A stretch of DNA of 64,000 nt, from the NCBI RefSeq assembly GCF_024218775.1, contig NZ_CP100404.1, forward strand, positions 1,178,001 through 1,242,000, given 5' to 3'. Shown one piece after another: positions 9,190 to 45,124 of the stretch. Every line of letters starts with the position of its first letter. The first letter of the stretch is position 1. Under the pieces are notes generated by a model that was not told the origin of the DNA, did not search any database, and saw only the letters and a list, made by a program, of their open reading frames with translations. This stretch comes from Haloarcula marina. Lineage in GTDB: Archaea > Halobacteriota > Halobacteria > Halobacteriales > Haloarculaceae. The translations under genes and the position numbers were made by a program.

Positions 9190-10335
9190 TCGCTGGACCG
9201 TCTCCCGCACCGCGCGGGCGGCCGTCCGCACGTCCGAGAGGCGGACGTACTCGCGTTTCGAGTGCGCGACCGCGCCCACGTCGTCGCTGAGGACGCCCGG
9301 GCCGAATACGACTGTCGGGCCGTGTTGGGCGAAGTAGGAGGCTTCCGTGGCCGCGCCGAACGGCCGGACCGCGCCGCCGCAGGCGTCCTGTAGCGTCCGC
9401 ACCAGTTCGGCGTCGGGGTCCGTCGCGAACGCTTCGGGGAAGGGCGTATCGGGCCGAATGAGCGACACGTCCAGCCCCATCGACGCGGGAAGCCACTCTC
9501 GGAGGTGGTCCGCCAAATCCGCACAGAACTCGTCGCTCGTCTCCGGCGGGACGCTCCGCCGGTCGAACGTGATGGTACACTCGGCGGGGACCTGATTCGT
9601 CGCCTCGCCGCCCTCCACCATCGACGGCGTGAGGATGGGTCGGCCCAGCGTCTCGTGGTCGCCGGGTCCCTTCGTCTCCTCGTAGGACTCCATCGCCTGC
9701 AGAATCGGGGCCGCGGCGCGAATCGCGTTCAGGCCGCTCTCCGGGTCGGCGGCGTGGGCACTCTCGCCGCGGATGGTGACCGTCCCCTCGAACTGCCCCT
9801 TCGCGGCGGTGCACACGTCGAGTCCCGTCGGTTCGCCGACGATGTAGCCGTCGGCGTCGATGACCTCGGCGAGGTGCGCGCCGCCGGTCTGCGTGGTCTC
9901 CTCGTCGATAGAGACGGCCAGCGTCACCGCACCGTCGTGGGGTTCGACGGTGAGGAACGCATCGAGCAACGCGGCCAGCGGTCCCTTTGCATCACAGGCC
10001 CCGCGGCCGCAGACGATGTCCCCTTCTCCTGCGTCTGCGGACCCGTCCACTCGCTCGTCTCCGGGTCGCTCGGTCCGGCGCTCGTAGGGGAGGTGCGGCG
10101 GCACGGTGTCGATGTGCGTGTTCAACAGGAGGTGGGCCCCGTCTGCGGCCGCGGCGGCCGCGTGGTCGGGTGCGCCGACCGTAGCGACGACGTTGCCCAG
10201 TTCGTCCACTGCCGGGGCGACGCCAGCGCTCTCCAGCGTCTCCAACAGCACGTCGCGCATCTCGTCGACGGATTCGGTCGAATCTGTCTCGACAGCGCGC
10301 TTGTGGAACGCCGCGAGGTCGAACCCGCCGGTCAT
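9178..10335 (-). CDS. dapE: Succinyl-diaminopimelate desuccinylase-like M20 peptidase
   Basis: 385 residues, an M20 family di-zinc amidohydrolase. Metal-site motifs are LLLNTHIDTVPPH (His, Asp), GRGACDAKGPLAALLDA (Asp), SIDEETTQTGG (Glu-Glu with the general base), IVGEPTG and a late AVAHSKREYV (His). It would remove succinate from N-succinyl-LL-diaminopimelate in lysine synthesis. Support for this role over other M20 enzymes comes from its ATGA overlap (10332-10335) with lysA, so the two are translationally coupled. Its 3' end overlaps the phosphoribosyltransferase gene on the opposite strand by 12 bases. Confidence 0.9.
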   Translation of the reverse strand: MTGGFDLAAFHKRAVETDSTESVDEMRDVLLETLESAGVAPAVDELGNVVATVGAPDHAAAAAADGAHLLLNTHIDTVPPHLPYERRTERPGDERVDGSADAGEGDIVCGRGACDAKGPLAALLDAFLTVEPHDGAVTLAVSIDEETTQTGGAHLAEVIDADGYIVGEPTGLDVCTAAKGQFEGTVTIRGESAHAADPESGLNAIRAAAPILQAMESYEETKGPGDHETLGRPILTPSMVEGGEATNQVPAECTITFDRRSVPPETSDEFCADLADHLREWLPASMGLDVSLIRPDTPFPEAFATDPDAELVRTLQDACGGAVRPFGAATEASYFAQHGPTVVFGPGVLSDDVGAVAHSKREYVRLSDVRTAARAVRETVQRLLQ

Positions 10336-11567
10336 CGCTCCAGACTGGTCACGTCGTCGAGGGTCTCTCGTTCGCGGACGACGCGCGTCTCGCCGCCCTC
10401 GATGGCGACTTCCGCGGGCCGTGGCTGGGAGTGGAACTGGTTGGCGAGTTCGTAGCCGTACGCGCCCGCGTTCCCGATTGCCAGCAGGTCCTCGCGCTCC
10501 GGCCGGGCAATCGGCCGGTCCGTACAGAACACGTCGGCGCTCGTACAGCAGGGGCCGCCGACGGAGACGGGGTCTGCCTCGCGGTCCGGCGCGGAGACGT
10601 TCCGAATCGGGTGGTACGACCCGAACATGGCCGGGCGGATGAGCGTCGCCAGCGAGGCGTCGACGCCGACGACGGTGGCCGCGGGCGTCTCCTTGACGGT
10701 GTTCACTTCGGTGAGGATGAGTTCGGAGTCGGCGACGACGTAGCGACCCGGTTCCAGTTTTATCTGGGCGTCCAGTTCGCCGACGGCGTCGCGGACCTTC
10801 TCGCCGACGACCCCCATGTCGAGCGGTTCCTCGTCCTCGCGGTACGGGACGCCGAACCCGCCGCCGAAGTCCACGAACTCCAGCGGCGTGATGTCCGTCT
10901 CGATTTGTCGGCCCATGTCCGCGACCTTTCCGATGGCGCGGCAGTGGTCGTCCAAGTCGTCATGGAGGACGCCGCTTCCGGCGTGGGCGTGGATGCCGAC
11001 GAGGTCGAATCGCTCGGCCACGTCGGCGGCCACCTCGGGGACCTGCTCGTAGGGAATCCCGAACTTCGCGTCTTTCCCCGTCGCTACTTTCTCGTGATGG
11101 CCGGTCCCGATGCCGGGGTTGACGCGGATGGCCACGCGGCCGTCGTAGCCGCGCGCTTCGAGGCGGTCGAAGGTGTCCCGCGCGCCGCCGGTGATGGTCA
11201 GTCCGGGATGGTCGGCGGCGAGGTCGGTGGCGTAATCCAAGTCACGGTCCGGCGGGTTGACGGCGGTGTACTGGAGGGTGTCGGGGTCCGCGCCCGCGTC
11301 GATTGCTCGCTGGAGTTCGCCCCACGCGGCGCACTCGATGTCCGCGCCGGTCTCCAGCAGTTTCGACAGCACCGCGCGACCGGTGTGGGCCTTCGCGGCG
11401 TACATCACGTGCGCGTCGGGGAACGCCGACGCGAACCGCTCGTAGTTCTCGGCGACGCGGTCCAAGTCGACCACGTACAGCGGCGTCCCGTGGTCGGCCG
11501 CGAGTCGACCCAGCAGGTCGTGGTCCCAGTCCGCGAGACGGCGGACCGGGGGCGAGTCGTGGCTCAT
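10332..11567 (-). CDS. lysA: Diaminopimelate decarboxylase
   Basis: 411 residues, fold-type III PLP enzyme. The PLP lysine is in VMYAAKAHTGRAVL. Further motifs are RVNPGIGTGHHEKVATG, HAHAGSGV, FVDFGGGFGVPY, LEPGRYVVAD and GPCCTSADVF, the last at the position of the family's G-P-x-C-E-S cysteine loop, with Thr replacing Glu. It converts meso-diaminopimelate to lysine, the last step of the pathway. The start at MSHDSPPVRRLADWD (11567) gives a normal N-terminus; the upstream extension looks non-coding. Its stop overlaps the dapE start. Diaminopimelate epimerase (dapF), which must supply the meso isomer, is not encoded in this window. Confidence 0.96.
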   Translation of the reverse strand: MSHDSPPVRRLADWDHDLLGRLAADHGTPLYVVDLDRVAENYERFASAFPDAHVMYAAKAHTGRAVLSKLLETGADIECAAWGELQRAIDAGADPDTLQYTAVNPPDRDLDYATDLAADHPGLTITGGARDTFDRLEARGYDGRVAIRVNPGIGTGHHEKVATGKDAKFGIPYEQVPEVAADVAERFDLVGIHAHAGSGVLHDDLDDHCRAIGKVADMGRQIETDITPLEFVDFGGGFGVPYREDEEPLDMGVVGEKVRDAVGELDAQIKLEPGRYVVADSELILTEVNTVKETPAATVVGVDASLATLIRPAMFGSYHPIRNVSAPDREADPVSVGGPCCTSADVFCTDRPIARPEREDLLAIGNAGAYGYELANQFHSQPRPAEVAIEGGETRVVRERETLDDVTSLER

Positions 11568-11675
11568 TGGGGAAACAACGGCGACGGCGGCTAACAAGGG
11601 TTCCGCTTCGGCCGAACCACCCACCGAGACGGGTCTGCAAGTGGGACTTACTCGCCGCCACAACGTGACTGCCAG

Positions 11676-13479: not shown

Positions 13480-14319
13480 TCAGTCCCGCAGCGCGTCCTC
13501 GCGCTCGGTGGCTTCGAGCGTCTCCTCTTCCACGTCGGTGGCGACGACAGCGGGCTTGTACGCGCCCCCGGGGATGAGGTCGTTCTCGCCGACGGAGGAG
13601 TCGACGAACCGCTGGAAGGCGCGGCGTTCCGGCGGCAGTTCGCCGTACAGCACTTCGTCCTCCACGAGGTCGTAGACGGGGATGCGGGGGGTCAGGAGCG
13701 TGTTCTCGCCGACGATGCTCCCCTCGCCGACGATGAACCCGCTGGTCACCCGACAACCAGCGCCCAGCGACACGTCGTCCTCGACGATGACCGGCGCGCT
13801 CTCGACGGGTTCGAGGACGCCGCCGATGAGCGTGTTCGCGCCCAGTTTCACGTTCTCGCCGATTTGGGCACAGGAGCCGACGGTGTCACAGGAGTCGATG
13901 AGCGTCCCGTCGCCGACGTGCGCACCGATGTTGACGAACGACGGCGACATCATGATACAGTCCTCGCCGAGGTACGCCCCGCGGCGGATGGTCGTGCCGT
14001 CCGGCGTGTTCCGCGTCCCGCGCTCCCCGAGGTCACCGGTGTCGCGGAGCGGCAGAACGTCGTGGTACTGCACGTCGCCGTACTCGCGGGCGTACGTCTC
14101 GCGGAACGCGAAGTTCAGCAGGATGCCGCGCTTGACCCACTCGTTGACCTGCCACTCGCCGTCGACTTTCTCGGCGGCGCGAATCTCGCCGCTCTCCAAG
14201 GCGGTGAGGAAGTCGTCGAGTGTGTCAAGTTGCGCGGGTTCGACGTCCTCGACCGTCGAGCCCTGTTCGTAGGCCGTCCAGAGGTGGCCGATGTTCTCTT
14301 CGAGGTCTTGTCCGAGCAT
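13480..14319 (-). CDS. dapD: 2,3,4,5-tetrahydropyridine-2,6-dicarboxylate N-succinyltransferase
   Basis: 279 residues. After an alpha-helical N-terminal domain (residues about 1-95) comes a left-handed beta-helix of hexapeptide repeats (GAYLGEDCIMM, VNIGAHVGDGTLID, AQIGENVKLGANTLIGG, FIVGEGSIVGENTLL). It succinylates tetrahydrodipicolinate with succinyl-CoA, committing the pathway to succinylated intermediates, which fits the dapE gene nearby. It follows dapB after a 76-base gap on the same strand. The length and the central DSCDTVGSCAQIG segment agree with bacterial DapD proteins. Confidence 0.95.
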   Translation of the reverse strand: MLGQDLEENIGHLWTAYEQGSTVEDVEPAQLDTLDDFLTALESGEIRAAEKVDGEWQVNEWVKRGILLNFAFRETYAREYGDVQYHDVLPLRDTGDLGERGTRNTPDGTTIRRGAYLGEDCIMMSPSFVNIGAHVGDGTLIDSCDTVGSCAQIGENVKLGANTLIGGVLEPVESAPVIVEDDVSLGAGCRVTSGFIVGEGSIVGENTLLTPRIPVYDLVEDEVLYGELPPERRAFQRFVDSSVGENDLIPGGAYKPAVVATDVEEETLEATEREDALRD

Positions 14320-14395: not shown

Positions 14396-15151
14396 TCAGG
14401 CGTCGACCACCTCGCCGAAGTCGTACCACCCGGCGTCCCGTCCGAGGAGCCATACCGCCGCGTCGAGCGCCCCGGCCGCGAAGACGCCGCGGTCCTCCGC
14501 GCGGTGAGACAGCGACAGCACTTCGTCGTTCCCGGCGACGACGAGTTCGTGCTCGCCGCGGATGTCTCCCGCTCGGCGGGCGAGGACGCCGATTTCGTCG
14601 TCCTCGCGCGGCGCGTGCCCCTCGCGGCCGTAGACGGGGTCCACGTCCCGGACCGCTTGGACGGTTTCGAGGAGGGTGTTCGCGGTCCCCGAAGGCGCGT
14701 CGACCTTGCGGTTGTGGTGGGTCTCCATCAGTTCGAGGTCGTAGTCGTCCAGCGTGGCGACGGCCTCGGTGACGAGTCGCTGGAGGACCTGAATCCCCTG
14801 TGAGAAGTTGGTCGCCTTCAGCACGGGAATCCGTTCGCTGGCCTCACGGAGGCGGGCCACGCCGTCTTCGTCGAAGCCCGTGGTCCCGACGACGACGGGG
14901 ACGCCCGCCTCGGCGGCGGCGTCGACGACGGTCAGCGCGCCCTCGGGAACGGCGAAGTCGACGACGGCGTCCACGTCGTACTCCGCGAACGCGTCCGCGG
15001 CGTCGTCCGGGTGGACGACCGGCACGCCCGAGACGGTTTCCACGTCGCTCGTGGCGAACCCGACTACCACCTCTACGTCGCGGTCGGTCGCCGTCGACAG
15101 CACCGCCGCGCCCATCTGTCCGGTGACGCCGTTGACGGCGACCCGCGTCAT
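14396..15151 (-). CDS. dapB: 4-hydroxy-tetrahydrodipicolinate reductase
   Basis: 251 residues. The N-terminal nucleotide-binding fold starts at once (VAVNGVTGQMGAAV); further motifs are VVGTTGFDEDGV, ATNFSQGIQVL and the catalytic/substrate segment ETHHNRKVDAPSGTA. It reduces the DapA product with NAD(P)H. Its start overlaps the dapA stop by four bases (15148-15151, ATGA on the minus strand), indicating translational coupling. The protein is of normal length with no missing motif. Confidence 0.96.
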   Translation of the reverse strand: MTRVAVNGVTGQMGAAVLSTATDRDVEVVVGFATSDVETVSGVPVVHPDDAADAFAEYDVDAVVDFAVPEGALTVVDAAAEAGVPVVVGTTGFDEDGVARLREASERIPVLKATNFSQGIQVLQRLVTEAVATLDDYDLELMETHHNRKVDAPSGTANTLLETVQAVRDVDPVYGREGHAPREDDEIGVLARRAGDIRGEHELVVAGNDEVLSLSHRAEDRGVFAAGALDAAVWLLGRDAGWYDFGEVVDA

Positions 15152-16074
15152 CGCTCGACCTCCGCGTACTCGTCCTCTAAGTCCTCGTTTTCCAGCACCG
15201 TCAGCACGTCACGCAGATGCTCCGTGTGTTCCTCCGAGAGCCGTGTCAGCGGCGAGCGGACGTATGCGGGGCTGTATCCGCGGATGCGCATGGCTTCCTT
15301 GACCGGGATGGGGTTCGTCTCGACGAACAGCGCGCGGAACAGTGGCCCGAGTTCGTGATGCAGGGCGCGCGCTCGCTCGTAGTCTTCGGCCAGCGCCGCG
15401 CCGACCATCGCGCAGGTCCGTTCGGGTTCGATGTTCGCGGAGACGGAGATACAGCCGTGACCGCCGACGGAGAGGATTGGCAGGGTCATGCCGTCGTCGC
15501 CCGACAGCACCGCGAACTCCTCGTCGCGGGTGCGCTCGATAATCTCGGAAATCTGGTTCATGTCGCCGCTGGCGGCCTTGAACGCGCGGATGTTCTCGTG
15601 GCTCGCCAGTTCGACGGCGGTGTCCGGTTCGATGTTGCGCCCGGTCCGCGAGGGGACGTTGTAGACGATTTGCGGGCAGTCGACGGCGTCCGCGATGGCG
15701 GTGTAGTGGTCGACGAGGCCCTGCTGTTCGGGCTTGTTGTAGTACGGCGAGATGAGGAGCAGGGCGTCCGCACCGGCGTCGGCCGCGCGCTGGGACAGCG
15801 AGAGCGCCTCGCGGGTGTTGTTCGACCCCGTGCCCGCGATGACGGGCACGTCGTCGACGGCGTCGATGACGGCTTCGACCACGTCGATGTGTTCGTCGTG
15901 GGTCATCGTCGCGGACTCGCCCGTCGACCCGACGGGGACGAGGCCGTCGACGCCCGCTTCTTCGAGGCGCTGGGCGTCGCGGCGGAGCGTTTCGAAGTCG
16001 ATACTGCGTTCGTCGTCGTCGTTGAACGGCGTACACATCGCGGGGTAGACGCCGTGGAAGTCGAGGTCTGTCAT
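15148..16074 (-). CDS. dapA: 4-hydroxy-tetrahydrodipicolinate synthase
   Basis: 308 residues, a class I aldolase barrel. Motifs are PAMCTPFNDD, PVGSTGESATMTHDE (pyruvate-binding T-G-E), GTGSNNTREAL, IVYNVPSRTGRN (catalytic Tyr) and AFKAASGD (Schiff-base Lys). It condenses pyruvate with aspartate semialdehyde, the first step specific to this lysine route. An ACATATCC box at about 16102-16109 on the minus strand lies roughly 30 bases before the ATG, so dapA probably has its own nearly leaderless promoter heading dapA-dapB-dapD. A small basic ORF lies further upstream on the same strand. Confidence 0.96.
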   Translation of the reverse strand: MTDLDFHGVYPAMCTPFNDDDERSIDFETLRRDAQRLEEAGVDGLVPVGSTGESATMTHDEHIDVVEAVIDAVDDVPVIAGTGSNNTREALSLSQRAADAGADALLLISPYYNKPEQQGLVDHYTAIADAVDCPQIVYNVPSRTGRNIEPDTAVELASHENIRAFKAASGDMNQISEIIERTRDEEFAVLSGDDGMTLPILSVGGHGCISVSANIEPERTCAMVGAALAEDYERARALHHELGPLFRALFVETNPIPVKEAMRIRGYSPAYVRSPLTRLSEEHTEHLRDVLTVLENEDLEDEYAEVER

Positions 16075-16202
16075 TGCTGAGGTGTGTCGTGTGGGGTGGG
16101 GATATGTGGTCCGGTTGGAGACGGTACGGGATGACTCTCTGCGGTGAGTCGGAGTAGAAGACGACCCGGGACGGGGGTGCTACGCCCGCCGCGAGCCACG
16201 CA

Positions 16203-16295
16203 CTACGGCGTGCGCTTGTGCTTGCGCTTGCGTTTCGGGACGGCGGCGACGCCACTCTCGGCCGGTCGGCCCGTCACGTCGAGTCGCCGTCGCAT
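16203..16295 (-). CDS. Candidate 30-residue Lys/Arg-rich small protein or leader peptide
   Basis: In the 309-base space between dapA and the NYN gene, the minus strand holds ATG (16293-16295) to TAG (16203-16205). It encodes 30 residues beginning MRRRLDVTGRP and ending PKRKRKHKRTP. Four AAA/AAG lysine codons alternate with Arg and His near the end. A GATAAG box lies about 25-30 bases upstream. It could be a small nucleic-acid-binding or ribosomal protein, a leader peptide for the lysine operon 128 bases downstream, or chance. The spacer between it and dapA has an imperfect GGCGGG/CCCGTC hairpin and the dapA TATA box. Nothing else is seen in 16075-16383. Confidence 0.35.
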   Translation of the reverse strand: MRRRLDVTGRPAESGVAAVPKRKRKHKRTP

Positions 16296-16383
16296 ACAGG
16301 GAACACCGTCTGTGAGGGACTTATCAGTTGTGCCTTCCGCTCGAACCCCGAAAACCTATCCGCCCGGAAACGAGAACTCAGCT

Positions 16384-16881
16384 ATGACCGTATCCCATCC
16401 GGGGCAGCGCGTGGCCGTACTGGCCGACGCGCAGAACCTCTATCATACGGCCCGGAGTCTCTACTCGCGCAACATCGACTATTCGGCACTGCTGGACGAG
16501 GCCGTCGACGGCCGGAATCTGAGTCGCGCCATCGCGTACGTCATCCGTGCGGATTCGCCCGACGAGGAGACGTTCTTCGAAGCACTCGTCGACATCGGTT
16601 TCGAGACGCGTATCAAGGACATCAAGACGTTTCAGGACGGGTCGAAGAAGGCCGACTGGGACGTGGGAATGAGTCTCGATGCGGTGTCGCTCGCCAGCCA
16701 CAACGACGCCATCGTCCTCTGTACGGGCGACGGCGACTTCGCTCGCCTCTGCCGTTTCCTCCGACACGAAGGCTGTCGCGTCGAGGCGATGGGCTTCGAG
16801 GAGTCGTCGGCCGAGGAACTGAAAGCGGCGACCGACGGCTTCCGCGACCTGAGCGCGGACGCCGACCGATTCTTGCTGTAG
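16384..16881 (+). CDS. NYN domain (LabA/DUF88-like) protein
   Basis: 165 residues forming one PIN-like NYN domain. Acidic residues for metal binding are seen in VAVLADAQNLYHTAR (Asp), KKADWDVGMSLDA (Asp, Asp) and AIVLCTGDGDFARLC (Asp-x-Asp). The order D...N...D...D...D fits the LabA/DUF88 group, predicted metal-dependent ribonucleases. The ATG at 16384 (MTVSHPGQRVAVLAD) is preferred because the domain begins a few residues later; upstream reading is low-quality. No partner gene suggests its RNA target. Confidence 0.88.
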   Translation: MTVSHPGQRVAVLADAQNLYHTARSLYSRNIDYSALLDEAVDGRNLSRAIAYVIRADSPDEETFFEALVDIGFETRIKDIKTFQDGSKKADWDVGMSLDAVSLASHNDAIVLCTGDGDFARLCRFLRHEGCRVEAMGFEESSAEELKAATDGFRDLSADADRFLL

Positions 16882-44344: not shown

Positions 44345-45124
44345 ATGGGCGCCCTCGACCGACCGGACTCGCTTCTGACGGTGGCCCGGCGGGTCGTCGC
44401 CGCGGCGCGGGAGGTGGACCTCGGGACGAACGCGGCGGCGCTCGCGTACTACGCGCTGGTGTCGCTGGTTCCGCTGGTCGTCCTCTCGACGGTCGTGGTG
44501 ACGGTCATCTGGGGCGACGCTGTCGCCGCGAGACTCATCGACGCCGTCGGCCAGATACTCTCGCCATCGGGGACCCAACTCGTCCGCGACGCGGTCACCG
44601 GGGCCGCGGGTCGCTGGCAGGCCTCGGTCGGGAGCGTGGTCGTCCTCATCTGGGGTGTCCTCCGATTCTTTCGCGCCCTCGACAGCGCTATCGCAGACAT
44701 CTACGGGACCGAGGCCCACGTGGGCAGTCGCGTGGCGGACGGATTGGTGGCGATGCTCGGCGTCGGCGGCGCTATCGCCGTCGTCGTGAGCGCGCGCCTC
44801 CTCGCGGCGGCGTTCGAGACGACGGCCGTCGGGTTTCCCGTCGTCGCGGTCCGGGTGCTCGTCGTCGCGCTGCTGCTCGGCCCACTGTACTACATACTCC
44901 CCGACGTGCAACTGTCGCTACGCGATGTCCTTCCCGGGACGGTGCTGGCCGCGGGCGGATGGGAACTGCTCCGCATCGCGTTCGACCTCTACCTCCTCGT
45001 CGGCGGCACGTCGCTGTCGGGCTTGTTGGGCGCTATCCTCCTCTTCGTGACGTGGCTCTTCTTCGGAAGCGCCGTCGTCCTCGTCGGTGCGCTCGTCAAC
45101 GCCGTCGTCGCCGGGTATCGGTGA
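44345..45124 (+). CDS. YihY/virulence factor BrkB family membrane protein
   Basis: 259 residues, six membrane segments. Family traits are LGTNAAALAYYALVSLVPLVVLSTV (near residue 27), a mid-protein VLIWGVLRFFRALDSAIADIYGTE and FDLYLLVGGTSLSGLLGAILLFVTWLFFGSAVVLVGALVNAV at the end. Once annotated as ribonuclease BN, the family has no proven enzymatic role; transport is suspected. The XPB-like helicase gene starts 40 bases after its stop with its own promoter-like TTATCC box. Confidence 0.88.
   Translation: MGALDRPDSLLTVARRVVAAAREVDLGTNAAALAYYALVSLVPLVVLSTVVVTVIWGDAVAARLIDAVGQILSPSGTQLVRDAVTGAAGRWQASVGSVVVLIWGVLRFFRALDSAIADIYGTEAHVGSRVADGLVAMLGVGGAIAVVVSARLLAAAFETTAVGFPVVAVRVLVVALLLGPLYYILPDVQLSLRDVLPGTVLAAGGWELLRIAFDLYLLVGGTSLSGLLGAILLFVTWLFFGSAVVLVGALVNAVVAGYR

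Follow-up and report, generated by a model that had tools for sequence, protein, structure and literature searches.

A conserved lysine-codon leader upstream of dapA in haloarchaea suggests control of lysine biosynthesis through ribosome position

Leader peptides that respond to an amino acid are a textbook form of control in bacteria. Here we describe a short open reading frame (ORF) upstream of the lysine biosynthesis gene dapA in the archaeon Haloarcula marina, which is very probably a lysine leader peptide controlling the dapA operon through the position of the ribosome. The broader statement that the element is a translated leader whose function depends on its lysine codons is, judging from comparison of haloarchaeal sequences, firmer still.

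The lysine element has three parts: a promoter predicted to place the transcript start at the leader ATG, a short ORF with Lys/Arg codons at its end, and a GC-rich hairpin that covaries. It is conserved in relatives: a covariance model (R1) that covers the Lys codons and the hairpin detects the element in 367 of 391 haloarchaeal genomes, representing 83 of 86 genera.

Results

The leader ORF and its surroundings in Haloarcula marina

All positions refer to the window, that is the whole 64,000-nucleotide stretch of contig NZ_CP100404.1 that was analysed. The features of the lysine region, all on the minus strand, are listed below in the direction of transcription.

16319..16332 (-): leader promoter, BRE/TATA-like CACAACTGATAAGT, from the positional profile of 88 leaders; the start site is a predicted one
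16203..16295 (-): leader ORF of 30 codons, encoding MRRRLDVTGRPAESGVAAVPKRKRKHKRTP followed by a stop codon; homologous leaders precede dapA throughout the haloarchaea
16283..16291 (-): hairpin 1, 5' arm GACGGCGAC, within the first codons; from its own fold and arm co-evolution
16239..16250 (-): hairpin 1, 3' arm GTCGCCGCCGTC, directly upstream of the Lys codons; from its own fold and arm co-evolution
16215..16235 (-): control codons, four Lys (AAA, AAG, AAG, AAG) alternating with Arg/His (KRKRKHK)
16162..16198 (-): hairpin 2, with an outer stem, one mismatch, the inner stem GGCGGG/CCCGTC and a conserved URGC loop
16075..16161 (-): spacer from hairpin 2 to dapA, with no Shine-Dalgarno (SD) sequence and with CATATC at 16101-16106
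15148..16074 (-): dapA, 4-hydroxy-tetrahydrodipicolinate synthase, the first lysine (DAP) gene (TIGR00674, scoring 340 bits where the cut-off is 206)
14396..15151 (-): dapB (TIGR00036)
13480..14319 (-): dapD (NF008808)
10332..11663 (-): lysA (TIGR01048), start codon not refined

Within the leader ORF, the Lys codons occupy 16235-16233, 16229-16227, 16223-16221 and 16217-16215. The ATG of dapA is at 16074, exactly 128 nt past the leader stop, and dapB, dapD and lysA (NCBIfam assignments) are located downstream of dapA. The original prediction, made from the sequence alone, had placed a Lys/Arg-rich ORF of 30 codons here, with four Lys codons and a 128-nt gap to dapA, and was exact on each of these points. 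The GGCGGG/CCCGTC hairpin that it proposed forms the inner stem of the longer hairpin at 16198-16162; the TATA-like sequence ACATATCC that it noted before dapA is likewise present (CATATC, 16106-16101). Its interpretation fared unevenly. The leader peptide idea is strongly supported by the class-wide comparison of haloarchaeal dapA leaders, the suggestion of a tiny basic protein is not supported, and the objection that dapA has its own promoter does not hold for the class.

Among all short ORFs, scored as the sum of a promoter score and amino-acid clustering, the leader ORF ranks first in 1.95 Mb of its own chromosome (14.6 compared to 7.9 for the next), this leader itself being one of the 88 used to train the promoter matrix. 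The promoter-matrix scan returned no other convincing leader in these 1.95 Mb, a part of the chromosome that excludes the pheS region.

On the opposite strand, a small divergent gene (16385-16881, +) with no NCBIfam match adjoins the leader in many Haloarcula and is found up to 2 kb away elsewhere. At a distance from the lysine region, ARAGORN called a tRNA-Asp of 98 nt (44736-44833, +) whose ATC anticodon is unusual; this call is probably a false positive.

The element is tied to dapA across haloarchaea

Because the 30 residues are too short for a search with the peptide alone to be decisive, synteny and an RNA model were used instead. As a DNA query, the region matched 31 of 60 related genomes, mostly from the same genus, and alignment of the relatives showed the promoter first, then an ORF with Lys/Arg towards the end, and then the hairpin. 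Twenty genomes were looked at more closely: 19 contain a single strong match (E values of 1e-20 to 1e-7) and one has a weak best match of 2e-4. Further matches in those genomes are weak, starting at about 8e-5, and the idea of additional copies of the lysine element at other sites was accordingly rejected.

We took 80 named dapA loci from Haloarcula, Natrialbaceae and Halorubrum-type genera. Nearly all of them have an ORF of about 24-30 codons upstream of dapA, ending in KRKRx, KKRx or a variant directly before the stop codon and followed by a hairpin. Every match to the covariance model for which both coordinates were given (115/115) is located 44-209 nt upstream of dapA and on the same strand. 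A dapA gene was found in 388 of the 391 genomes, and the three with no dapA match (G071, G141 and G216) lack the element too.

Many genomes missed by the covariance model contain divergent leaders, with endings such as ...RRGKRGKR or ...SKSKRVQF before the stop, whereas two deep families (f9 and f11) seem truly to be without a leader. Two kinds of unusual loci were also observed. At L111, L113, L123 and L143, the usual stop or frame is missing and the frame reads into hairpin 2, ending at a TAG in the loop. At L094 and L104, hairpin 2 is apparently tandemly repeated between the leader stop and dapA (three and two times, respectively).

Selection acts on the Lys/Arg codons

When related leaders are compared, 83% of the codon changes that involve a single base are synonymous within the Lys/Arg stretch, where 26% would be expected in the absence of selection. 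For the N-terminal part, the corresponding values are 25% and 29%, that is the neutral level, in a test that compares related leader pairs rather than independent events. Lysine accounts for 18% of the last 12 leader codons and for 0.15% of the earlier ones. Codon choice is also distinctive, most leader lysines being encoded by the rare codon AAA, with an AAA:AAG ratio of 163:34 in the leaders and 14:238 in dapA genes. Start codons (ATG/GTG) and stop codons (TGA/TAG/TAA) interchange among leaders. Taken together, coding selection limited to the end of the ORF, the AAA bias and the interchanging start and stop codons point to control codons, rather than to a working protein or an RNA that happens to be open.

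A conserved promoter at the leader, none at dapA

Across 88 leaders, the pattern CACAAC-NN-ATAAGT is near-invariant at -37 to -24 from the leader start codon (column frequencies: C-37 0.91, A-34 0.95, A-33 0.91, T-28 0.90, A-27 0.93 and A-26 0.85). With this promoter spacing, the transcript would start at or next to the leader ATG, resulting in a leaderless mRNA. No conserved TATA region was found at dapA itself across 75 dapA genes. Upstream regions of these genes contain an SD-like stretch in 2 of 75 cases, and the 50 nt preceding the genes consist of 41% C, 31% A, 18% G and 10% T.

A promoter conserved at the leader and none at dapA suggests that transcription of dapA normally begins at the leader promoter. 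The original prediction had taken a promoter of dapA's own as weakening the leader idea, an objection that loses its force for the class. Some Haloarcula share the CATATC/ACATATCC box near dapA, and there it may represent a secondary, clade-specific promoter.

Two hairpins and a fixed distance to the Lys codons

Hairpin 2 of the window folds at -19.8 kcal/mol. Across the alignment, 94% of its cells are paired and 10 of 13 pairs have double-sided changes; compensated cells number 134, whereas shuffles gave 53.5 and slid controls no more than 40. Within the otherwise GC-rich stem, one G-U pair is invariant (92 of 93 rows; alignment A3, columns 46 and 70), and the URGC loop is nearly constant. 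Both features suggest that hairpin 2 is recognized, for example through contact with a protein or the ribosome.

Hairpin 1 lies within the first 60 nt, for which the own fold is -31.8 kcal/mol. Its two arms co-evolve, the native 1:2 duplex being at -25.9 kcal/mol and the swapped duplex at -22.5 kcal/mol, with a weaker level of support than for hairpin 2 (mean fold z of -1.4).

Counted from the first nucleotide of the final Lys codon, the distance to the base of hairpin 2 is uniform throughout the class, with a median of 14 nt and an interquartile range of 14-15 nt. Its standard deviation is 1.7 nt, compared to 4.3 nt if stop position and gap were independent, and none of 2000 shuffles was as tight, in a set where rows are related and where the covariance model, spanning both the Lys codons and the hairpin, favours typical spacing. 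Leaders with more codons past the last Lys have a correspondingly smaller gap between stop and hairpin (r = -0.85, slope of -2.6 nt per codon). In the Haloarcula marina window the distance is 19 nt, not 14. The front edge of a ribosome lies about 12-15 nt ahead of the codon in its A site. Given this footprint, a ribosome awaiting lysyl-tRNA at the 14-nt spacing would touch hairpin 2.

Phenylalanine and tryptophan leaders

Table 2 of a report on upstream ORFs (uORFs) in Haloferax (Hfx.) volcanii, based on differential RNA-seq (dRNA-seq), prompted us to look upstream of pheS and trpS (PMC4983044). It lists a uORF of 26 aa for pheS and one of 23 aa for a trpS, both located in 5'-UTRs of 150-250 nt, and marks no extra start site for these two genes, which, as far as the table goes, fits transcription through the leader. 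dapA is missing from the table.

At 11 of 14 pheS loci (L298-L307 and L310), the upstream region contains a leaderless ORF with GFGFFFA, or a variant of it, directly before the stop codon. The RNA model of the pheS leader matches 265 of 391 genomes and 72 of 86 genera, including one match in the genome of Haloarcula marina itself:

C1:3324038-3324122 (-), outside the window: pheS leader, upstream of pheS, from the RNA model match

In pheS leaders, GGGNTTCGG at the first Phe codon is a possible pairing partner of a 5' CCGAAYCCC. Before trpS, Trp-rich leader ORFs (WRWW, WRWQ, WQWRW, WRW) were found at four loci of the second type (L320-L323) and one of the first type (L328, in genome G014).

No convincing leader was found at trpC (0/10) or hisG (0/10). 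The trpC loci (L228-L237) contain a conserved palindromic stretch, GTACATATGAGTACGTCGATGTAC or similar, beside the promoter and near the gene start, which is likely a repressor operator. At the hisG loci (L239-L248), a conserved AAAGACAGTT or AAAGACAATT is located just upstream of most hisG genes and is perhaps a promoter or operator variant.

Discussion

A proposed mechanism

We propose that transcription from the leader ATG would yield a leaderless mRNA, the leader of which would be translated during transcription or just after it. Were lysyl-tRNA scarce, above all for AAA, the ribosome would wait with a Lys codon in its A site and its front edge would just touch an intact hairpin 2. With ample lysine, the ribosome would instead reach the stop codon, open the outer stem and be released. 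The stalled ribosome and the hairpin would together let RNA polymerase continue into dapA, so that low lysine would be expected to raise dapA expression. Once the ribosome is released, transcription would end early, within the untranslated spacer; the archaeal factor FttA/aCPSF1 is the simplest candidate for this step.

A termination step of this kind is about as likely as not. The ribosome and FttA have been suggested to exclude each other on the polymerase, an idea that is itself a proposal (PMC11616081) and that would provide a ready mechanism for this step. FttA prefers U-rich RNA (PMC11616081), and the U-poor spacer therefore does not favour it. Furthermore, since neither a conserved 2:3 pairing nor a U-tract is present, these elements leave the termination step unsupported.

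Alternative readings of the element

The lysine codons may be read by the ribosome and the leader nevertheless act on the translation or stability of the dapA message, not on transcription. This possibility is the strongest of the alternatives, and we consider it to be doubtful but worth keeping in view. The lack of an SD sequence at dapA and the long G- and T-poor spacer in front of it, which could load ribosomes, would suit such a mode of action. Hairpin 2, with its G-U pair and URGC loop, could equally be a processing or protein site. Speaking against this reading, the distance from hairpin 2 to dapA varies between 44 and 209 nt, and native pairing of the leader regions with the first 60 nt past hairpin 2 is no better than that of swapped sequences.

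Arrest by the nascent peptide, where the basic KRKR tail stalls the ribosome for a ligand other than lysyl-tRNA, is unlikely. Arg codons beside the Lys codons are conserved almost as much as Lys itself, with KRKR or KKR near the stop, and this conservation makes an arrest peptide or a mixed Lys/Arg signal possible. The remaining peptide is, however, free to change, the strong AAA bias points to decoding rather than to the residue alone, and the Phe and Trp leaders use other residues.

A classical trp-type attenuator, in which a stalled ribosome leaves region 2 available for pairing with region 3 and a 3:4 intrinsic terminator is thereby blocked, is improbable. Much of the arrangement fits: the upstream ORF is conserved and presumably translated, its codons for lysine, the product of the operon, are clustered, two hairpins are present and the whole precedes a biosynthetic operon. 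The Lys codons, however, follow region 2 instead of lying in region 1. For 2:3 duplexes, the native partners have no advantage over swapped ones (-18.8 and -18.1 kcal/mol, respectively; median percentile 0.49), and no U-tract was found after hairpin 2, where T is enriched only at +2 to +4. A 1:2/2:3/3:4 switch was rejected given that 1:2 and 3:4 co-evolve and 2:3 does not; an intrinsic terminator at hairpin 2 was likewise rejected, the hairpin being present and the U-tract missing. Because the two defining features of the trp type, an exclusive 2:3 antiterminator pairing and a terminator made of hairpin and U-tract, are both lacking, we regard the leader as one that would work like a bacterial attenuator and yet do not place it in the trp type.

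A riboswitch-like structured RNA with an incidental ORF would account for a conserved, covarying hairpin 2, but is very hard to reconcile with Lys/Arg codon changes that are mostly synonymous and with start and stop codons that interchange. Moreover, no Rfam family, including the lysine riboswitch (L box) and the T-box, reaches the gathering threshold within the window. A match to an sRNA near the leader (E value of 3.2) was considered spurious. The small basic nucleic-acid-binding or ribosomal protein suggested in the original prediction is scarcely credible, for despite the high Lys/Arg content and the coding-type selection at its end, the peptide has no Pfam match, drifts neutrally over its first two thirds, and is always tied to dapA and missing where dapA is missing.

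Relation to known systems

The preferred reading, a lysine leader acting through ribosome position, resembles the bacterial attenuators trpL, hisL, pheL and ilvB, in which a short ORF with a cluster of product codons and then hairpins likewise precede a biosynthetic or synthetase gene. The haloarchaeal leader differs from these in being archaeal and leaderless, in the placement of its Lys codons, which follow hairpin 1 instead of forming part of it, in lacking a conserved antiterminator or U-tract, and in the fixed distance between Lys codons and hairpin.

In E. coli, the Phe-rich leader pheM precedes the phenylalanyl-tRNA synthetase genes (pheST). The haloarchaeal GFGFFFA leader before pheS parallels pheM, with an unrelated sequence and archaeal machinery. 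In leaders of the tnaC type, a ribosome at the end of the leader blocks factor-dependent termination and alternative pairing is not needed. The haloarchaeal leader would share this simple logic of ribosome occupancy near the leader stop; it differs in the conserved hairpin that comes next, and archaea use FttA, not Rho. The lysine riboswitch also controls lysine biosynthesis via a 5' leader, whereas the haloarchaeal element has no Rfam match and has an ORF with conserved Lys codons.

The pheS and trpS uORFs of Hfx. volcanii are probably the leaders found here; the part of that report drawn on here does not discuss amino-acid sensing or list dapA (PMC4983044). No archaeal amino-acid leader was found described in open-access papers or in Rfam, and we do not claim priority, given that subscription papers and supplements fall outside this search.

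On balance, we favour an archaeal family of ribosome-read leaders, for Lys before dapA, for Phe before pheS and for Trp before trpS, that would be wired in its own way. Such leaders would be leaderless at the level of the message; for Lys, a fixed distance from ribosome to hairpin would link stalling to read-through, perhaps because the ribosome and FttA compete, and without the bacterial pair of antiterminator and terminator. If true, archaea would have arrived at the bacterial logic using another polymerase, another termination factor and messages that are leaderless. The lysine leader would also offer a natural, genetically tractable test of transcription-translation coupling in archaea and, with it, of the suggested exclusion between ribosome and FttA (PMC11616081).
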